This document shows, in pieces, positions 36,864 to 42,138 of a DNA stretch of 64,000 bases (positions are counted from its first letter, which is position 1; each line of letters begins with the position of its first letter). The notes beneath the pieces are model-generated. The model ran no database searches and had not been told where the DNA came from. It saw only the letters and a program-made list of their open reading frames with translations. The DNA is from Thermomicrobium sp. 4228-Ro (GTDB taxonomy: Bacteria; Chloroflexota; Chloroflexia; Thermomicrobiales; Thermomicrobiaceae). Where the stretch lies: positions 248,001 to 312,000 of the forward strand of contig NZ_JAPFQM010000006.1 in NCBI RefSeq assembly GCF_026241205.1, read 5' to 3'. A program made the position numbers and the translations under genes.

Positions 36864-39530
36864 TCATCCGAGGGGCCAGAGCGGAGAACGCCCCAGACCA
36901 GCGAGCGTGAGGAGCAGCACGGCCAATTCCACGGCCAAACCCGCGAGCAACACGACCCAGTCGCGTCGCCGCAATCGGAGATCGCCGAACCGCAAGCGGG
37001 TGCCTCGCGCGCCCACACCGCGCACGGCGAGGACCCAGGCAAGCTGCTGCGCTTGCCGGAACGTGGCGGCCAGCGCGACCGAGAGGACCGGCAGCAAGGC
37101 CCGTAGCCGCGCCATTCCACGCTCCGGTATGACCCAGCCGCGCGTCTGCAGCGCCTCGGCCGCTGTCGCGAAGGTCTGGGCGAACACTGGCACGAAGCGG
37201 AGCCCGATCGCCAGCGCAAGCCCGATACCGGCCGGCAGGCCCAGGCGCACCAGGCTCTGGACGAGCGCACGCTCGCTGGTCGTCGCGAACCAGCTTAACG
37301 CAAGCAACGCCAGCGCCACGAGACGGAGCGCTGCAGACAATGCCGCGAGCACCGCCGGGACGGTGAGCACGACCGGGCCGATAGCCACGAGCACCGGTTC
37401 ACCGCTCCGGTCGAAGAGGGGTCGCAGGAGGAGCACGAGTAGGAGCAGCGGGGCGAGTGCCCGCCAGAGCTCGCCGAGGCGACGCCACGGAAAGCCGCCC
37501 AGGGAGCGGAGCAGCAGGTGCAGGAGTAGGGTACCGGCGAGCAAGGGGAGTGGACTTTCCCAGAGCAGTACCGGTATGGCGGCCCCGAGCGCGAGCGCCA
37601 GCTTGACGCGCGGATCCAGCCGAGCGAGGAACGGCAGCGCTCCGGTGCTCCCCGACGCGTGCACGGTGGCAGCGGTTCGTCGGGACGACGGATCCGGATA
37701 TCGGGGCTGCACAGCCTGACGCTGCTGCGTCCCACGCACGGCTGGGCCACGCAGCGCGGCGACGAGGTCGGCCGGCTCGAGCGCTGGCGGGAGTGCGAGC
37801 GCGTGGGCAACCGCGGTAACGGGCAGCGGCTCGAGGACGCAGGAACGCAAGAGTTCAGCATCGCCGAGCACGGCAGCGGGCGAGCCATCGGCGCGGATCA
37901 CGCCGTCATGCAGCAGGACGACTCGCCGTGCACAGCGGGCGACGAAGCGGAGGTCGTGACTGACGAGGAACACGCTGCCGCCAGCCGCCGCGTGCTCGAC
38001 GAGGAGAGCGGCGAGAAGCACTCGCCCGTTCTCGTCCAGCGCACTGGTCGGCTCGTCGAGGACGAGGAGTTCCGGCTCGCGGGCAACTGTTGCGGCGATG
38101 GCGACCAACTGCCGTTGACCGCGGCTGAGGAGGGGAAGCGGCAATTCGGCGACGGCCCGGAGTCCGAAGCGTACGAGCGTTTCCTCCGTGCGGCGGGCGA
38201 CAGTCGGTGCATCGAGTCCCAGCTGCTGGAGCGCGAAGGCGATCTCGGCCCGCGGAGTCGCGCGGACGAGCTGGTGATCGGGGTTCTGCGCCACATAGCC
38301 GACGCTCCGGGCCAGCTCAGCGACCGTCCGGTTCCGGGTATCCTGCCCAGCCACGAGCACGCGGCCTTCGGTCGGCCGCAAGGCACCGATGACGTGCCGA
38401 GCGAGGGTCGTCTTCCCTGAACCGTTCGGTCCGACCAGTGCCACGATCTCGCCTGGGGCGATCACGAGGTCGATGCCGCGGAGAACCTCGGGCCCACCGT
38501 CGTAGCGGAACCGCACGCGCTCGACGCAAAGCAGCGGCGAAGCTCCCGGAGGCGCAGGCGGAGCGGGAGCGTCCGGTTCAGCTGTCCGGATGGCTCCCCC
38601 GGCGGCTGCCCGAGCGCTGCACCGCTGCAGCACCGCGACCGCCTCGTCGACAGCGCGGAAGAGCGGCGGAGGCTGACAGCCGGGTACGTCTTCGAGAGCG
38701 CGAGCCAGCTCGGCCAGTTGGGGCGGCGCGGTGCCGAGCTGCGCCAATGTCGACCGATCGGTGAAGGCGACCTCCGGTGGTGCATCGAGCACGAGCCGAC
38801 CAGCAGCCAGACCGAGGACGCGTTCGACGAGCGGCAGGAGGAAATCCGTGTCCCGCTCGGCCAGCACGACGGTCAACCCGTCGGATGCAACGAGCGTTGC
38901 GAGGGCTTGGAGCAGCTCCTGCTTGCCGCGCGGGTCGAGCTGCGTCGCCGGCTGGTCGAGGACGAGCAACGCCGGTCGGCGTGCCAGCGCGACGGCCAGC
39001 GCCAGACGCTGCTTCTGCCCACCGGAGAGCTGGCCCGCTGGGCGGTCACGGAACTCCTGGAGACCGACCAGCTCGAGGGCACGGGTGACACGACGGCTCA
39101 CCTCGTCCGGTGGAAGGCCGACCAGCTCGAGCGCGAAGGCGACCTCGTCGGCGACGCTCAGGCCGATGAGGTTCGCTTCCGGGTCCTCGAAGACGATGCC
39201 GACCCGGTGAGCGAGCTCCAGAGGGCTGACGCTCGTCGTCTCGCAGCCAGCAACTTCCAGCCAGCCGCGGACCGTGCCACCGGTCTCGTGCGGCACGATG
39301 CCAGCCAGCGCGAGACACAACGTCGTGAGGCCACTGCCACTCGCACCGACGAGGCCGACGACCTGCCCAGTGGGGACAACGAAGTCCAGCTCCTCGAGCG
39401 CGGCAGGCGCTTCACCAGACGGAAGGAGCGGCGGATACCGGTAGGTGAACCGCTCGGCGCGGATCGCGTACGGAACCGGTGTTTCGCCCCGGCTGGCCGC
39501 TCCAGGGCGACACGGCTGCTGGGCAGTCAT
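36864..39530 (-). CDS. ECF transporter energy-coupling module: two ATPase domains and EcfT fused in one chain
   Basis: An 888-aa single chain replacing three usual proteins. Domain 1 (about 20-260) is an ABC ATPase with signature LSGGQKQRLALA but a degenerate active site: Walker A is GASGSGLTT (Leu for Lys), Walker B ends LLVLDQPA (Gln for catalytic Glu), the Q-loop reads VFEDPE and the switch His is Arg (LAERD). Domain 2 (about 330-570) is intact: GPNGSGKTT, AQNPDHQ, LSRGQRQ, LLVLDEPT, SHD. After a linker, domain 3 (about 630-880) is EcfT, with five to six membrane segments and the coupling motif region FATAAEALQTRGW. The S component is encoded just upstream. Natural fusions of A and A' are known; A-A'-T fusions are rarer. 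Confidence 0.88.
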   Translation of the reverse strand: MTAQQPCRPGAASRGETPVPYAIRAERFTYRYPPLLPSGEAPAALEELDFVVPTGQVVGLVGASGSGLTTLCLALAGIVPHETGGTVRGWLEVAGCETTSVSPLELAHRVGIVFEDPEANLIGLSVADEVAFALELVGLPPDEVSRRVTRALELVGLQEFRDRPAGQLSGGQKQRLALAVALARRPALLVLDQPATQLDPRGKQELLQALATLVASDGLTVVLAERDTDFLLPLVERVLGLAAGRLVLDAPPEVAFTDRSTLAQLGTAPPQLAELARALEDVPGCQPPPLFRAVDEAVAVLQRCSARAAAGGAIRTAEPDAPAPPAPPGASPLLCVERVRFRYDGGPEVLRGIDLVIAPGEIVALVGPNGSGKTTLARHVIGALRPTEGRVLVAGQDTRNRTVAELARSVGYVAQNPDHQLVRATPRAEIAFALQQLGLDAPTVARRTEETLVRFGLRAVAELPLPLLSRGQRQLVAIAATVAREPELLVLDEPTSALDENGRVLLAALLVEHAAAGGSVFLVSHDLRFVARCARRVVLLHDGVIRADGSPAAVLGDAELLRSCVLEPLPVTAVAHALALPPALEPADLVAALRGPAVRGTQQRQAVQPRYPDPSSRRTAATVHASGSTGALPFLARLDPRVKLALALGAAIPVLLWESPLPLLAGTLLLHLLLRSLGGFPWRRLGELWRALAPLLLLVLLLRPLFDRSGEPVLVAIGPVVLTVPAVLAALSAALRLVALALLALSWFATTSERALVQSLVRLGLPAGIGLALAIGLRFVPVFAQTFATAAEALQTRGWVIPERGMARLRALLPVLSVALAATFRQAQQLAWVLAVRGVGARGTRLRFGDLRLRRRDWVVLLAGLAVELAVLLLTLAGLGRSPLWPLG

Positions 39531-39576
39531 GCGCGGTCGGTCCTGGCTGCGCTGGTCGCATGCACCCGGAAGACCG

Positions 39577-40131
39577 TCACGCTTCACGGCGGAAGCGGGA
39601 CGGTACCAGACGAGCGAGCGCGACGCCGAACGTCTCGCGGAGCAAGACCGTCAGGGCGATCCCGCCGACGGCACCCGACACGACCTGCCACACGTTGAAC
39701 GGAACGTTGGCCGTCGCGGTAGCGAGACCGATCCGGAGCACGGCGATTTCCCAGAGGAAGTAGCCGACGACGATGATGACGCCGCCGATGATTGTCGCCA
39801 GGATCATCCGCCAGACGCCAGCCCGCCAGCCGATCCAACCGGCCAGGAAGCCCTGCAGGCCGTGCAGGACGAACGTGGCTGGTGCGTATTGCCCGTAGCC
39901 GCTCGTCAGATCGGCCAGCATCGGGCCGAGCGCGCCGCTGATACCACCGACGATCGGGCCAAAGAGGAACGCGCCGGTGTAAATGGCGATATCGCCGAGA
40001 TGGATGTAACCGCTCGGAATCGGCACCTGGATGAAGCGCGTGGCGACGAAGACGACAGCGATCATCACGCCGCTCAGTGCGATCGCGAGCGGGGTGAGCA
40101 CGAGACGCTCTCGATCCGGTCGTTGCACCAT
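39577..40131 (-). CDS. ECF transporter substrate-binding S component
   Basis: A 184-aa membrane protein with about six hydrophobic segments matching PF07155-type S components: a first helix with VFVATRFIQVPIPSGYIHLGDIAIYTGAFLFGPIVGGISGALGPMLADL (family: ..f..ip.p.gyi.lGd..i...alLfGp..G...G.iG..laDll) and APATFVLHGLQGFLAGWIG. S components bind a vitamin or metal; family members have been linked to riboflavin, pyrimidines or other vitamins, so the cargo is not assigned. It lies 46 bases upstream of the fused energy-coupling gene and probably works with it. Confidence 0.82.
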   Translation of the reverse strand: MVQRPDRERLVLTPLAIALSGVMIAVVFVATRFIQVPIPSGYIHLGDIAIYTGAFLFGPIVGGISGALGPMLADLTSGYGQYAPATFVLHGLQGFLAGWIGWRAGVWRMILATIIGGVIIVVGYFLWEIAVLRIGLATATANVPFNVWQVVSGAVGGIALTVLLRETFGVALARLVPSRFRREA

Positions 40132-40380
40132 GCGAACCCGCCTCCTCTCCACAACAGGCAGCCTACCGGGCAACGAGCGGCTCGGCAACGACCAATTGGC
40201 ACCGTCCAATCGGTAATCGGTAACCTGCCAGTCCAGCGTATCCCTGCAGGCCGACTGGCGTCGCGCAACCGGACGAACTATGGTTGTGCGTGAACGGCGA
40301 GCCCGCTCCCGGAGCACATTACGAGCCTGAGGAGGCGGTCTCCTACGTTCCGGCGGAAAGAGACGAAAGGGCGAGTAGGG

Positions 40381-41322
40381 ATGACACACGCCGTCATCGT
40401 GGTGAGCGGGCTCGAACGGCGATTCGGGGAAACGGTCGCGCTCGCCGGGATCAGCTTCACGGTCGCGGCCGGTGAAGTCGTGGGACTCCTCGGTCACAAC
40501 GGGGCAGGGAAGACGACCACCATCCGCTCGCTGCTGGGACTGCTCGCGCCGCACGGTGGCACGGTCCGCGTCTTCGGCCTGGAGCCGACGGTCGACGGCG
40601 AGCGTGTCCGGGCTCGCACCGGGGTGGTGGGTGAATCGCCCGGGCTCGACGAGCGGCTGACCGCTCGCGAGCTGCTGCGGGTCTTCGCCGATCTGTACGA
40701 CGTTCCACCCGCGCTCCAGCGGACACGCATCCCGGAACTGCTGGAGCAGTTCGGGCTGACCGAGGCTGCCGACCGCCGGGTGGGAACGTTCAGCGCCGGG
40801 ATGCGCCAGCGGTTGGCTTTGGCCCGCTGCCTGCTGCACGACCCGGAACTCCTGCTCCTCGACGAGCCGACGACGGCGCTCGATCCGGTGGCAGCACATC
40901 AGGTACGCGAGCTGATCGCCGAGCGACGACGCGAGGGGCGGACGATCCTCCTGGCGACGCACAACCTCGACGAGGCGGAGCGTCTCTGCGACCGGGTGAT
41001 CATCCTGGAGCGCGGCCGGGTGCTGGTGGAAGGCCACCCGCGGGAACTCGCCGCTGCGCTCGGCGTTCCCAGCCGGCTCACGCTGGAGGTCGAGCCACTC
41101 TCGAGCGAACAGGCGCTGGCTGTGCTCCGCGGCTGTGGAGTGGTTGCCCAGGTCGAACCGCAACCCGGGCGGCTCACGGTCGACCGGGTGACGCGCCGGC
41201 AGGTCCCGGAACTCGTCGCGGCCCTGGTCGAGGCGGGTGTTCCCGTGTACGGCGTGACGGTGCAGGCACCGTCGCTGGAGGACGTCTACCTGGCGCTCCA
41301 CCAGCGGGCTACCCGGAGGTGA
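40381..41322 (+). CDS. ABC transporter ATP-binding protein (NatA/CcmA type)
   Basis: A 313-aa ABC ATPase: Walker A GHNGAGKTTT, Q-loop segment TGVVGESPGLDERLTARELL, signature FSAGMRQRLALARCLL, Walker B LLLLDEPTTALDP and switch LLATHNLDEAE. After about residue 215 there is an 80-residue C-terminal extension common in exporters of this group. It pairs with the ABC-2 permease gene that starts four bases after its stop. The substrate is unknown (Na+ in NatAB, lipids, peptides or drugs in others). Confidence 0.9.
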   Translation: MTHAVIVVSGLERRFGETVALAGISFTVAAGEVVGLLGHNGAGKTTTIRSLLGLLAPHGGTVRVFGLEPTVDGERVRARTGVVGESPGLDERLTARELLRVFADLYDVPPALQRTRIPELLEQFGLTEAADRRVGTFSAGMRQRLALARCLLHDPELLLLDEPTTALDPVAAHQVRELIAERRREGRTILLATHNLDEAERLCDRVIILERGRVLVEGHPRELAAALGVPSRLTLEVEPLSSEQALAVLRGCGVVAQVEPQPGRLTVDRVTRRQVPELVAALVEAGVPVYGVTVQAPSLEDVYLALHQRATRR

Positions 41323-41325
41323 ACG

Positions 41326-42138
41326 ATGCGGTGGTCACGCATCCGCGCCATCGTGCGGAAAGACCTCACGGCGATCCGGCGCAGCCGGGTCGTGGTGGTC
41401 CCCCTCGTGCTGGTACCGTTCATCTTTTTCGTCGCGATGCCGGTCGCGCTCGGCCTCGTCGCACGCCTGGTGCCGGTCGATCGAGGGGACGCACAGGATC
41501 TCGAGCGCCTGCTCCGCGCATTGCCCGGGACGGAGCGCGAGCGCTTCCAGGCACTCGAGCCCAGCCAGCAGCTGGCGGTACTCCTCTTCAGCTACCAGTT
41601 CGCGCCGCTGCTCCTGATCGTCCCGCTCGCGACGACGATGGTGATCGCCGCGGACGGGATCGCCGGCGAGCGCGAGCGGCGGACGCTCGAGGCACTGCTC
41701 GTGACACCGATACGCGACGACGAGCTCTTCCTCGGCAAACTTCTCGCGGCAGCGCTCCCGGCGATCCTGATCAGCTGGGGCGGAGCGCTCGTCTCGGCGC
41801 TGCTCGCTTCGATACTCAGCGGCGTCGGGCCACCGCTCTTGCCCAGCCTGTCCTGGCTCATCTTCGCTGTCCTCGGCGGGCCGGCTGTCACGCTCCTGGG
41901 TCTGGGAGTGATCACGCTCGTTTCCTCGCGGGTGCGCGGGATGCAAGAAGTCTCGCAGGTCAGTGGCCTGGTCGTCATCCCGATCATCGGACTCGTCATC
42001 GCGCAGTCGAGCGGCCTCGTCCTGCTCGACTGGCCGCTCGCGCTGCTCGCGTGCGCCGTCGTCTGGGCGCTCGCACTCGCTCTCTTGTCGGCGAGTCGCC
42101 GGTTGTTCCGTCGCGAAGCGCTGTTACGGCTCGGTTGA
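41326..42138 (+). CDS. ABC-2 type transporter permease
   Basis: A 270-aa membrane protein of the NatB-like ABC-2 family. The N-terminal helix precedes a first membrane segment (VVPLVLVPFIFFVAMPVALGLVA), an external loop of about 60 residues, then LLIVPLATTMVIAADGIAGERERRTLEALLVTPIRDDELFLGKLLAAALPAI, the coupling-helix motif of this class (ge.e.gTle.Ll..Pi...ell.GK), and four further membrane segments. Its 3' end overlaps the convergent MFS gene by 15 bases, leaving no room for separate terminators. Confidence 0.87.
   Translation: MRWSRIRAIVRKDLTAIRRSRVVVVPLVLVPFIFFVAMPVALGLVARLVPVDRGDAQDLERLLRALPGTERERFQALEPSQQLAVLLFSYQFAPLLLIVPLATTMVIAADGIAGERERRTLEALLVTPIRDDELFLGKLLAAALPAILISWGGALVSALLASILSGVGPPLLPSLSWLIFAVLGGPAVTLLGLGVITLVSSRVRGMQEVSQVSGLVVIPIIGLVIAQSSGLVLLDWPLALLACAVVWALALALLSASRRLFRREALLRLG

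Follow-up and report, generated by a model that had tools for sequence, protein, structure and literature searches.

How would an importer of the energy-coupling factor (ECF) type run if one of its two ATPase sites had lost its catalytic residues? The question is raised by a gene of Thermomicrobium sp. 4228-Ro lying in the stretch of DNA analysed here, 64,000 nucleotides of contig NZ_JAPFQM010000006.1 (positions 248,001 to 312,000), hereafter the window. The gene encodes one protein in which two ATP-binding cassette (ABC) ATPases, EcfA and EcfA' (A and A', forming nucleotide-binding domains NBD1 and NBD2), are joined to the membrane component EcfT (T). A sequence-only reading of the window had described this fusion and proposed that one of its ATPase sites is dead. 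We find that the substitutions at this site are fixed in Thermomicrobium and that the equivalent site has changed repeatedly in related proteins; the importer is probably driven by its other site alone.

A one-chain ECF motor with one degenerate site

Profile searches bore out the fusion and its ECF identity. Pfam found two ABC_tran stretches and one CbiQ/EcfT domain in the protein, and NCBIfam identified both ATPases as ECF-type, with TIGR04520 (354.8 bits, cut-off 315) and TIGR04521 (333.3 bits, cut-off 330) each matching two stretches. EcfT has two X-Arg-X anchors and an S component is encoded directly upstream, so that all parts of an ECF transporter are present. The S gene adjoins the A-A'-T gene both in the window and in T. 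roseum, the arrangement of group I (dedicated) ECF transporters.

ABC ATPases dimerise head to tail, and this is the basis on which motifs were assigned to composite sites. Site 1 combines the Walker side of NBD1 with the signature of NBD2 (signature 2), and site 2 the Walker side of NBD2 with the signature of NBD1 (Table 1; residues are numbered from a GTG at 39587). As had been claimed, NBD1 lacks the Walker A Lys (L87), the Q-loop Gln (E134), the catalytic Glu (Q212) and the switch His (R245), and signature 2 in the window is LSRGQ. Site 2 is intact, with K392, the Q-loop residue Q434, E512 and H544 of NBD2 and LSGGQ of NBD1. Site 1, with its Leu and Gln, differs from the type found in Lactobacillus delbrueckii, which has two catalytic sites with Glu and Lys at both. 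The asymmetry is that of degenerate-site ABC proteins, Q212 in NBD1 against E512 in NBD2 in all six full-length sequences of the genus. Signature 2 is also altered throughout, but not uniformly as LSRGQ: it is LSRSQ in T. roseum and LGRGR in HR27, against LSGGQ in signature 1, a milder change in which mostly the first Gly alone is affected. Three residues are retained in NBD1: D211, the Asp of Walker B, the Thr that follows the position of the Lys, and an aromatic Tyr preceding Walker A.

An AlphaFold model of the protein is consistent with a head-to-tail NBD1-NBD2 dimer. Its confidence (predicted local distance difference test, pLDDT) was about 70-95 in NBD1, mostly about 90 in NBD2 and mostly below 50 in EcfT. 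Both modelled NBDs aligned jointly to ATP-bound DppD (one chain; 484 residues, 3.0 Å), and both also aligned to outward-facing ABCB1 (464 residues, 3.2 Å). Given this model and the head-to-tail ABC dimer, all the defects are assigned to one composite site, as the sequence-only reading had it.

The site 1 substitutions are fixed across Thermomicrobium

The window protein was compared with its orthologues from HR27, HR28, CFH 73360, an uncultured Thermomicrobium and T. roseum, giving six full-length sequences. All five orthologues share L, E, Q and R at site 1, as does the N-terminal half from a further species whose gene is split over two contigs. The codons vary synonymously, with CTC, CTG, TTG or CTA for Leu, CAG or CAA for Gln, and CGG, CGT or CGC for Arg. 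Sequencing error at the Leu codon had been raised as an alternative; it is ruled out because the codons at L, Q and R differ among the genus sequences, the six genomes having four different Leu codons.

The open frame is intact in all six sequences. Ratios of nonsynonymous to synonymous substitution (dN/dS, Nei-Gojobori method, NG86) were 0.06-0.23 for NBD1 (14 of 15 pairs, the other being saturated), 0.10-0.26 for NBD2 and 0.10-0.23 for EcfT (15 pairs), values that are rough given the high dS, with NBD1 no higher than either of the others. Invariant columns made up 59% of NBD1, 50% of NBD2 and 55% of EcfT. Recent decay had been suggested as another alternative, and homologues with intact residues do exist, but the substitutions are fixed genus-wide with synonymous turnover and low dN/dS, which rules it out. 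The site 1 changes are fixed in the genus and the protein is under purifying selection.

Recurrent change at site 1 among fused A-A' ATPases

Fused A-A' ECF ATPases were surveyed in 202 proteins: the window protein, 189 from genomes of the same phylum, Chloroflexota, six from plasmid records (including T. roseum) and six from other related loci (four Chloroflexota, one Myxococcota, one Armatimonadota). The survey is thus mostly of one phylum. A first set of 134 loci yielded 120 fused proteins and, after trimming, 116 distinct ones; L001, the window protein, was dropped in favour of the window's own row, which with 115 others makes up the 116. To these were added 80 more loci, all fused, and six further fused proteins. 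Omitted from the first set were proteins whose halves lie on separate contigs (the split gene of a metagenome-assembled genome of the genus), ATPase pairs encoded by two genes or in two frames (e.g. L126/L145), and loci that do not belong to the family. The survey represents part of the listed matches, 60 regions of a first search and 80 of a second, besides loci supplied directly. As the first query was degenerate at site 1 and may have biased the set towards such proteins, the search was repeated with a query intact at both sites. Among the 80 proteins fetched with it, there was one site 1 change (L231) and no site 2 change.

At site 2, the Lys, Gln, Glu, His, signature Ser and second signature Gly were all present in 202/202 proteins. 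At site 1, at least one of these six positions was altered in 48 of the 202, the changes affecting Lys in 7, Gln in 22, Glu in 14, His in 30, the signature Ser in 24 and the second Gly in 14. Lys or Glu was missing from 15 proteins, and Lys, Glu or His from 30; to call these residues lost presumes that the ABC consensus is ancestral. On a rapidly built LG+G4 tree, in which some forks are unresolved, site 1 required a minimum of two changes for Lys, four for Glu, eight for His, six for Gln, seven for Ser and five for Gly, against zero at site 2. Thinning to 96 proteins at 60% identity left 24 with a changed site 1 and none with a changed site 2. A sign test on the eight changes of the combined Lys/Glu/His state gave p = 0.008 if these are independent and equally likely, a rough yardstick. 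Repeated change at site 1 is also seen where EcfT is separate from the fused A-A' ECF ATPase, and the degeneracy first described within the A-A'-T fusion, whilst real, is not peculiar to it.

The replacements differ between lineages. The catalytic Glu is Gln in Thermomicrobium and in L090, L096, L123 and L124, Asp or Asn in L122, L127 and L132, and Ser in a plasmid protein of Rubrobacter radiotolerans, whilst the Walker A Lys is Leu in Thermomicrobium and Val in L119. The latter protein (G445:C27; Walker A1 GATGAGVST) represents a separate, second loss of Lys in which the catalytic Glu is retained. The R. radiotolerans protein (Actinomycetota; plasmid NZ_CP007515.1, L161:2120-3919) is a separate site 1 loss beyond Chloroflexota, with Walker B DSS, Glu in the Q-loop, Asn at the switch and signature 2 MPGGQ; its site 2 is intact. 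A half-way state of the same site is found in the clade of L037-L041 and L066, mostly Chloroflexota with one Myxococcota, where the NBD1 Q-loop has Glu and signature 2 is LPRGD, LPKGD or LPKGE, and Lys, Glu and His are retained. The Q-loop change had been counted among the defects; it is present in Thermomicrobium, yet Q-loop Glu also occurs in this clade. The source genome itself encodes a second fused A-A' ATPase (L237, G000:C1:1390559-1392031) with both sites intact, which serves as an in-genome control.

Joint decay of the Walker side and the opposite signature was also considered. It is unsupported on the tree, with two independent pairs on supported branches; in raw counts the opposite signature was lost in 10 of 30 proteins with a Walker-side loss against 17 of 172 without.

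The closest relatives, from two genomes of a sister genus (L007 and L008), group with Thermomicrobium at 99% support (Shimodaira-Hasegawa-like approximate likelihood ratio test, SH-aLRT). They keep K, Q and E at site 1, have Ser for the switch His and LGRGL as signature 2, and encode EcfT in a separate gene. The changes to the His and the signature thus either preceded those of K, E and Q and the fusion of EcfT or took place independently of them. In the other fused A-A' gene contexts inspected, EcfT, wherever found, was in a separate reading frame.

In a tree of 71 single domains, a supported branch split all 32 NBD1s from all 32 NBD2s. The NBD1s of Fusobacteriota and Vibrio plasmid relatives fell on the NBD1 side and their NBD2s on the opposite side. 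The group II pair of a Subdoligranulum plasmid (EcfA1 and EcfA2 by similarity to PDB entries) clustered together beside the NBD1 side, so the fused proteins seem to carry an old duplication of their own. A mapping of NBD1 and NBD2 onto EcfA1 and EcfA2, drawn from PDB similarity and the domain tree, was therefore dropped: as the group II pair is unsplit, EcfA and EcfA' roles are not transferable to NBD1 and NBD2 by homology.

A motor probably driven by site 2 alone

We consider it probable that the S component and the one-chain A-A'-T protein form a complete ECF importer in which site 2 alone hydrolyses ATP and site 1 is a closed hinge. The two genes would suffice for the full importer, the HmpT-like S component being dedicated to a motor whose NBD1 and NBD2 would pair head to tail beneath EcfT. 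Hydrolysis would occur only at composite site 2, through the Walker A and B motifs, Q-loop and switch His of NBD2 with the LSGGQ of NBD1. Site 1 would not hydrolyse ATP, and the Leu in place of Lys argues against its binding ATP normally; it would instead be a permanently or mostly closed hinge, a fixed contact holding the dimer half-closed. One ATP per cycle at site 2 would open and close the dimer and shift the two EcfT coupling helices. We infer that site 1 has lost hydrolysis and binding, that one ATP is used per cycle and that transport takes place; the word 'dead' was likewise read from the sequence. In support, every change falls in one composite site though its parts belong to two domains, and NBD1 retains LSGGQ, its contribution to site 2, as EcfT does its two X-Arg-X anchors.

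Several points weigh against this interpretation. In L. delbrueckii, a single Glu-to-Gln change at either site abolishes ATPase activity and transport, according to the available part of PMC10368641. A one-site ECF motor conflicts with this mutational test, and compensating changes would be needed. At its low pLDDT (mostly below 50) EcfT is poorly modelled, and contacts between its coupling helices and the NBDs are not visible. The sign test is built on at most eight changes and assumes independence and equal chances. Signature 2 keeps both its Ser and its second Gly in 20 of the 30 proteins that lack Lys, Glu or His. Given the loss of function on mutation of either L. delbrueckii site, fused A-A' ECF ATPases with site 1 losses look like natural one-site ECF motors, and the separate partial losses in other bacteria suggest that such importers can work on one site.

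Site 1 might alternatively bind ATP tightly without hydrolysing it, the bound nucleotide being a standing glue, an idea put forward for heterodimeric exporters in the accessible portion of PMC7756269. The Asp of Walker B, the Thr and the aromatic Tyr that NBD1 retains would suit such binding. For Thermomicrobium we nevertheless think it unlikely, as Leu, which lacks a Lys-like phosphate contact, replaces Lys in 6/6 sequences and the Q-loop Gln and switch His are altered as well. ATP may serve as glue in the lineages that keep Lys without Glu, which are two further clades of Chloroflexota and the plasmid protein of Rubrobacter.

The substituted L, E, Q and R are constant in the genus as though functional, which could point to slow hydrolysis or regulatory nucleotide sensing at site 1 through non-standard residues, in an asymmetric motor using both sites. 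The text available of PMC10368641 describes an ordinary ECF complex with ATP at one site and ADP at the other. As every residue that would normally contact phosphate, activate water or sense the gamma-phosphate is altered, we judge a motor using both sites improbable.

Two A-A'-T chains joined through their NBD2 domains would possess two normal sites, with NBD1 a structural appendage, and NBD2 does retain all the Walker-side residues for this. Such an assembly would depend on signature 2, altered in every form seen in the genus, whereas it is signature 1 that keeps Ser and the second Gly in 202/202 proteins. NBD1 is moreover conserved at least as well as NBD2, and the model places the two jointly as in DppD, so this architecture is very improbable. 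That the transporter is decaying or non-functional, or its gene misassembled, as four normally essential residues missing at one site might suggest, deserves hardly any credence given the intact frame in 6/6 sequences, the low dN/dS in all three domains, the constant substitutions with synonymous turnover, and an S gene and neighbours in identical order in T. roseum.

The reading of site 2 as sole engine may extend to fused A-A' ECF ATPases in general. These would form a built-in asymmetric motor in which the site of NBD2 Walker motifs and NBD1 signature is the sole indispensable one; the other would be free to decay, as it has done repeatedly (fully in Thermomicrobium), and one ATP would be used per cycle, unlike in the group II module, where neither site is dispensable. 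On this generalisation we are evenly divided.

The S component and its possible cargo

The closest solved structure to the S component is HmpT (4hzu_S, E 2.8e-13, query residues 19-162). In the alignment, four of the six HmpT ligand residues are identical (His84, Tyr120, Asn140, Gln143) and two are similar (Glu41 to Asp, Trp76 to Tyr). T. roseum has an annotated S component at the corresponding place. HmpT is reported to carry pyridoxamine (PMC4860826, as far as its available text goes). No match to ThiC came from the source genome, whereas the control search recovered ThiC from 13 of 14 genomes. The source genome did have a ThiD-family match, two ThiE-family matches and PdxS, of vitamin B6 synthesis. 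Because ThiC is without a match and the ThiD and ThiE families and PdxS are present, import of the thiamin precursor hydroxymethylpyrimidine (HMP) is likelier than that of vitamin B6. We tentatively propose HMP, for thiamin salvage, as the cargo, with slightly less than even confidence. The two ThiE-family genes form a tandem pair (G000:C1:595662-596846) near the ThiD-family gene (C1:597758-598492).

A further S component match above cut-off (PF12822; G000:C1:724284-724790) lies on another contig than the genome's two identified EcfT genes. It may share the A-A'-T motor or borrow that of either EcfT gene.

Gene layout and surroundings

The fused protein lies in a single open frame at 36864-39587 on the reverse strand, the earliest start being the GTG at 39587. 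The ATG at 39530 is the better start, as the GTG falls within the end of the upstream S gene. The coordinates of all features are given in Table 1.

Table 1. Genes, domains and motifs of the A-A'-T locus, in window positions
Feature	Position	Strand	Evidence or comparison
Fused EcfA-EcfA'-EcfT protein, 888 aa from ATG	36864..39530	-	Six full-length genus sequences compared
NBD1, first ECF ATPase domain, Walker side of degenerate site 1	38688..39467	-	NCBIfam/Pfam
NBD2, second ECF ATPase domain, Walker side of intact site 2	37788..38543	-	NCBIfam/Pfam
EcfT (CbiQ, PF02361) domain in same chain as ATPases	36867..37667	-	PF02361 62.3 bits, cut-off 25
ECF S component, 184 aa, HmpT-like, ATG start, leads two-gene operon	39577..40131	-	PF07155 104 bits, cut-off 26.7
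Walker A1 GASGSGLTT, L87 (CTC) instead of Lys	39327..39329	-	Leu in 6/6 full-length genus sequences
NBD1 Q-loop VFEDP, E134 instead of Gln	39186..39188	-	Genus alignment
Signature 1 LSGGQ, intact, completes site 2	39015..39029	-	Genus and survey alignments
Walker B1 LDQP, Q212 instead of catalytic Glu	38952..38954	-	Genus alignment
NBD1 switch LAERD, R245 instead of His	38853..38855	-	Genus alignment
Walker A2 GPNGSGKTT, K392, intact	38406..38432	-	Genus alignment
Signature 2 LSRGQ, altered, completes site 1	38115..38129	-	LSRSQ in T. roseum, LGRGR in HR27
Walker B2 LDEP, catalytic Glu E512, intact	38052..38054	-	Genus alignment
NBD2 switch SHD, H544, intact	37956..37958	-	Genus alignment
EcfT X-Arg-X anchor TRG, end of first coupling helix by analogy	37137..37145	-	6/6 genus sequences; role from available part of PMC10368641
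EcfT X-Arg-X anchor VRG, end of second coupling helix by analogy	37017..37025	-	Arg-Gly in 6/6 genus sequences

The surroundings are conserved on the 918-kb plasmid of T. roseum DSM 5159, where genes for an MFS protein, an ABC permease, a CcmA-like ATPase, the ECF S component, the ATPase protein, SDR and VOC proteins and branched-chain amino acid permeases occur in the same order as in the window. The CcmA-like ABC ATPase and permease pair (40381-42138, forward strand) is divergent from the S gene, a position kept in T. roseum. The window contig (G000:C6) is 907,128 bases long and the T. roseum plasmid with the orthologous region 917,738 bases; from this similarity in size, the window may sit on a megaplasmid. 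Rfam gave no match at gathering score anywhere in the window. A riboswitch upstream of the S gene was rejected, as Rfam had no match at E 0.1 in 39900-40500.

Comparison with known systems

The L. delbrueckii group II EcfA-EcfA'-EcfT module, as the accessible part of PMC10368641 describes it, has the same parts, X-Arg-X anchors in EcfT and a dimer motion that moves the coupling helices: ATP binding closes the dimer, bends these helices and expels the S component. It differs in having separate subunits, each single Glu-to-Gln change being lethal to ATPase and transport. YkoD of YkoEDC, known here by its description in the text available of PMC5037267, likewise joins two ECF ATPase domains in a single chain and works with dedicated S and T components; the Thermomicrobium chain also contains EcfT and lacks K, Q, E and H at site 1.

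The likeness to heterodimeric ABC exporters drawn by the sequence-only reading holds. As set out in the available portion of PMC7756269, these have lost the catalytic Glu in one NBD and have an altered opposite signature, the other site being canonical. The Thermomicrobium protein is instead an ECF-type importer with an EcfT/CbiQ membrane domain, and its loss of the Walker A Lys (to Leu) exceeds the usual exporter pattern; that portion of the source names a change of this Lys solely for ABCG5/G8, to Arg. Importers also offer precedents. RbsA and NupO of Bacillus subtilis are fused-NBD importers with one degenerate site and one Walker A without Lys, according to the part available of PMC11466899. 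They belong to another importer type, with a solute-binding protein, and it is the second Walker A that lacks Lys, against the first in Thermomicrobium; the same part of the paper sets ECF transporters aside.

In the open-licence literature searched, we found no report of a degenerate ECF site nor of an A-A'-T fusion. The original comparative genomics papers on ECF transporters may tabulate such fusions. Fused ECF ATPases are known already, as are degenerate sites in exporters, RbsA and NupO; a degenerate site in an ECF transporter appears, from these searches, to be new. The order of ATP binding and hydrolysis at the two ECF sites is stated as open in the available text of PMC10368641. The Thermomicrobium motor with its partially degenerate and its intact relatives provides a ready series for asking whether one site suffices and which changes allow it, and it extends degenerate sites, treated mainly for exporters, to ECF importers.

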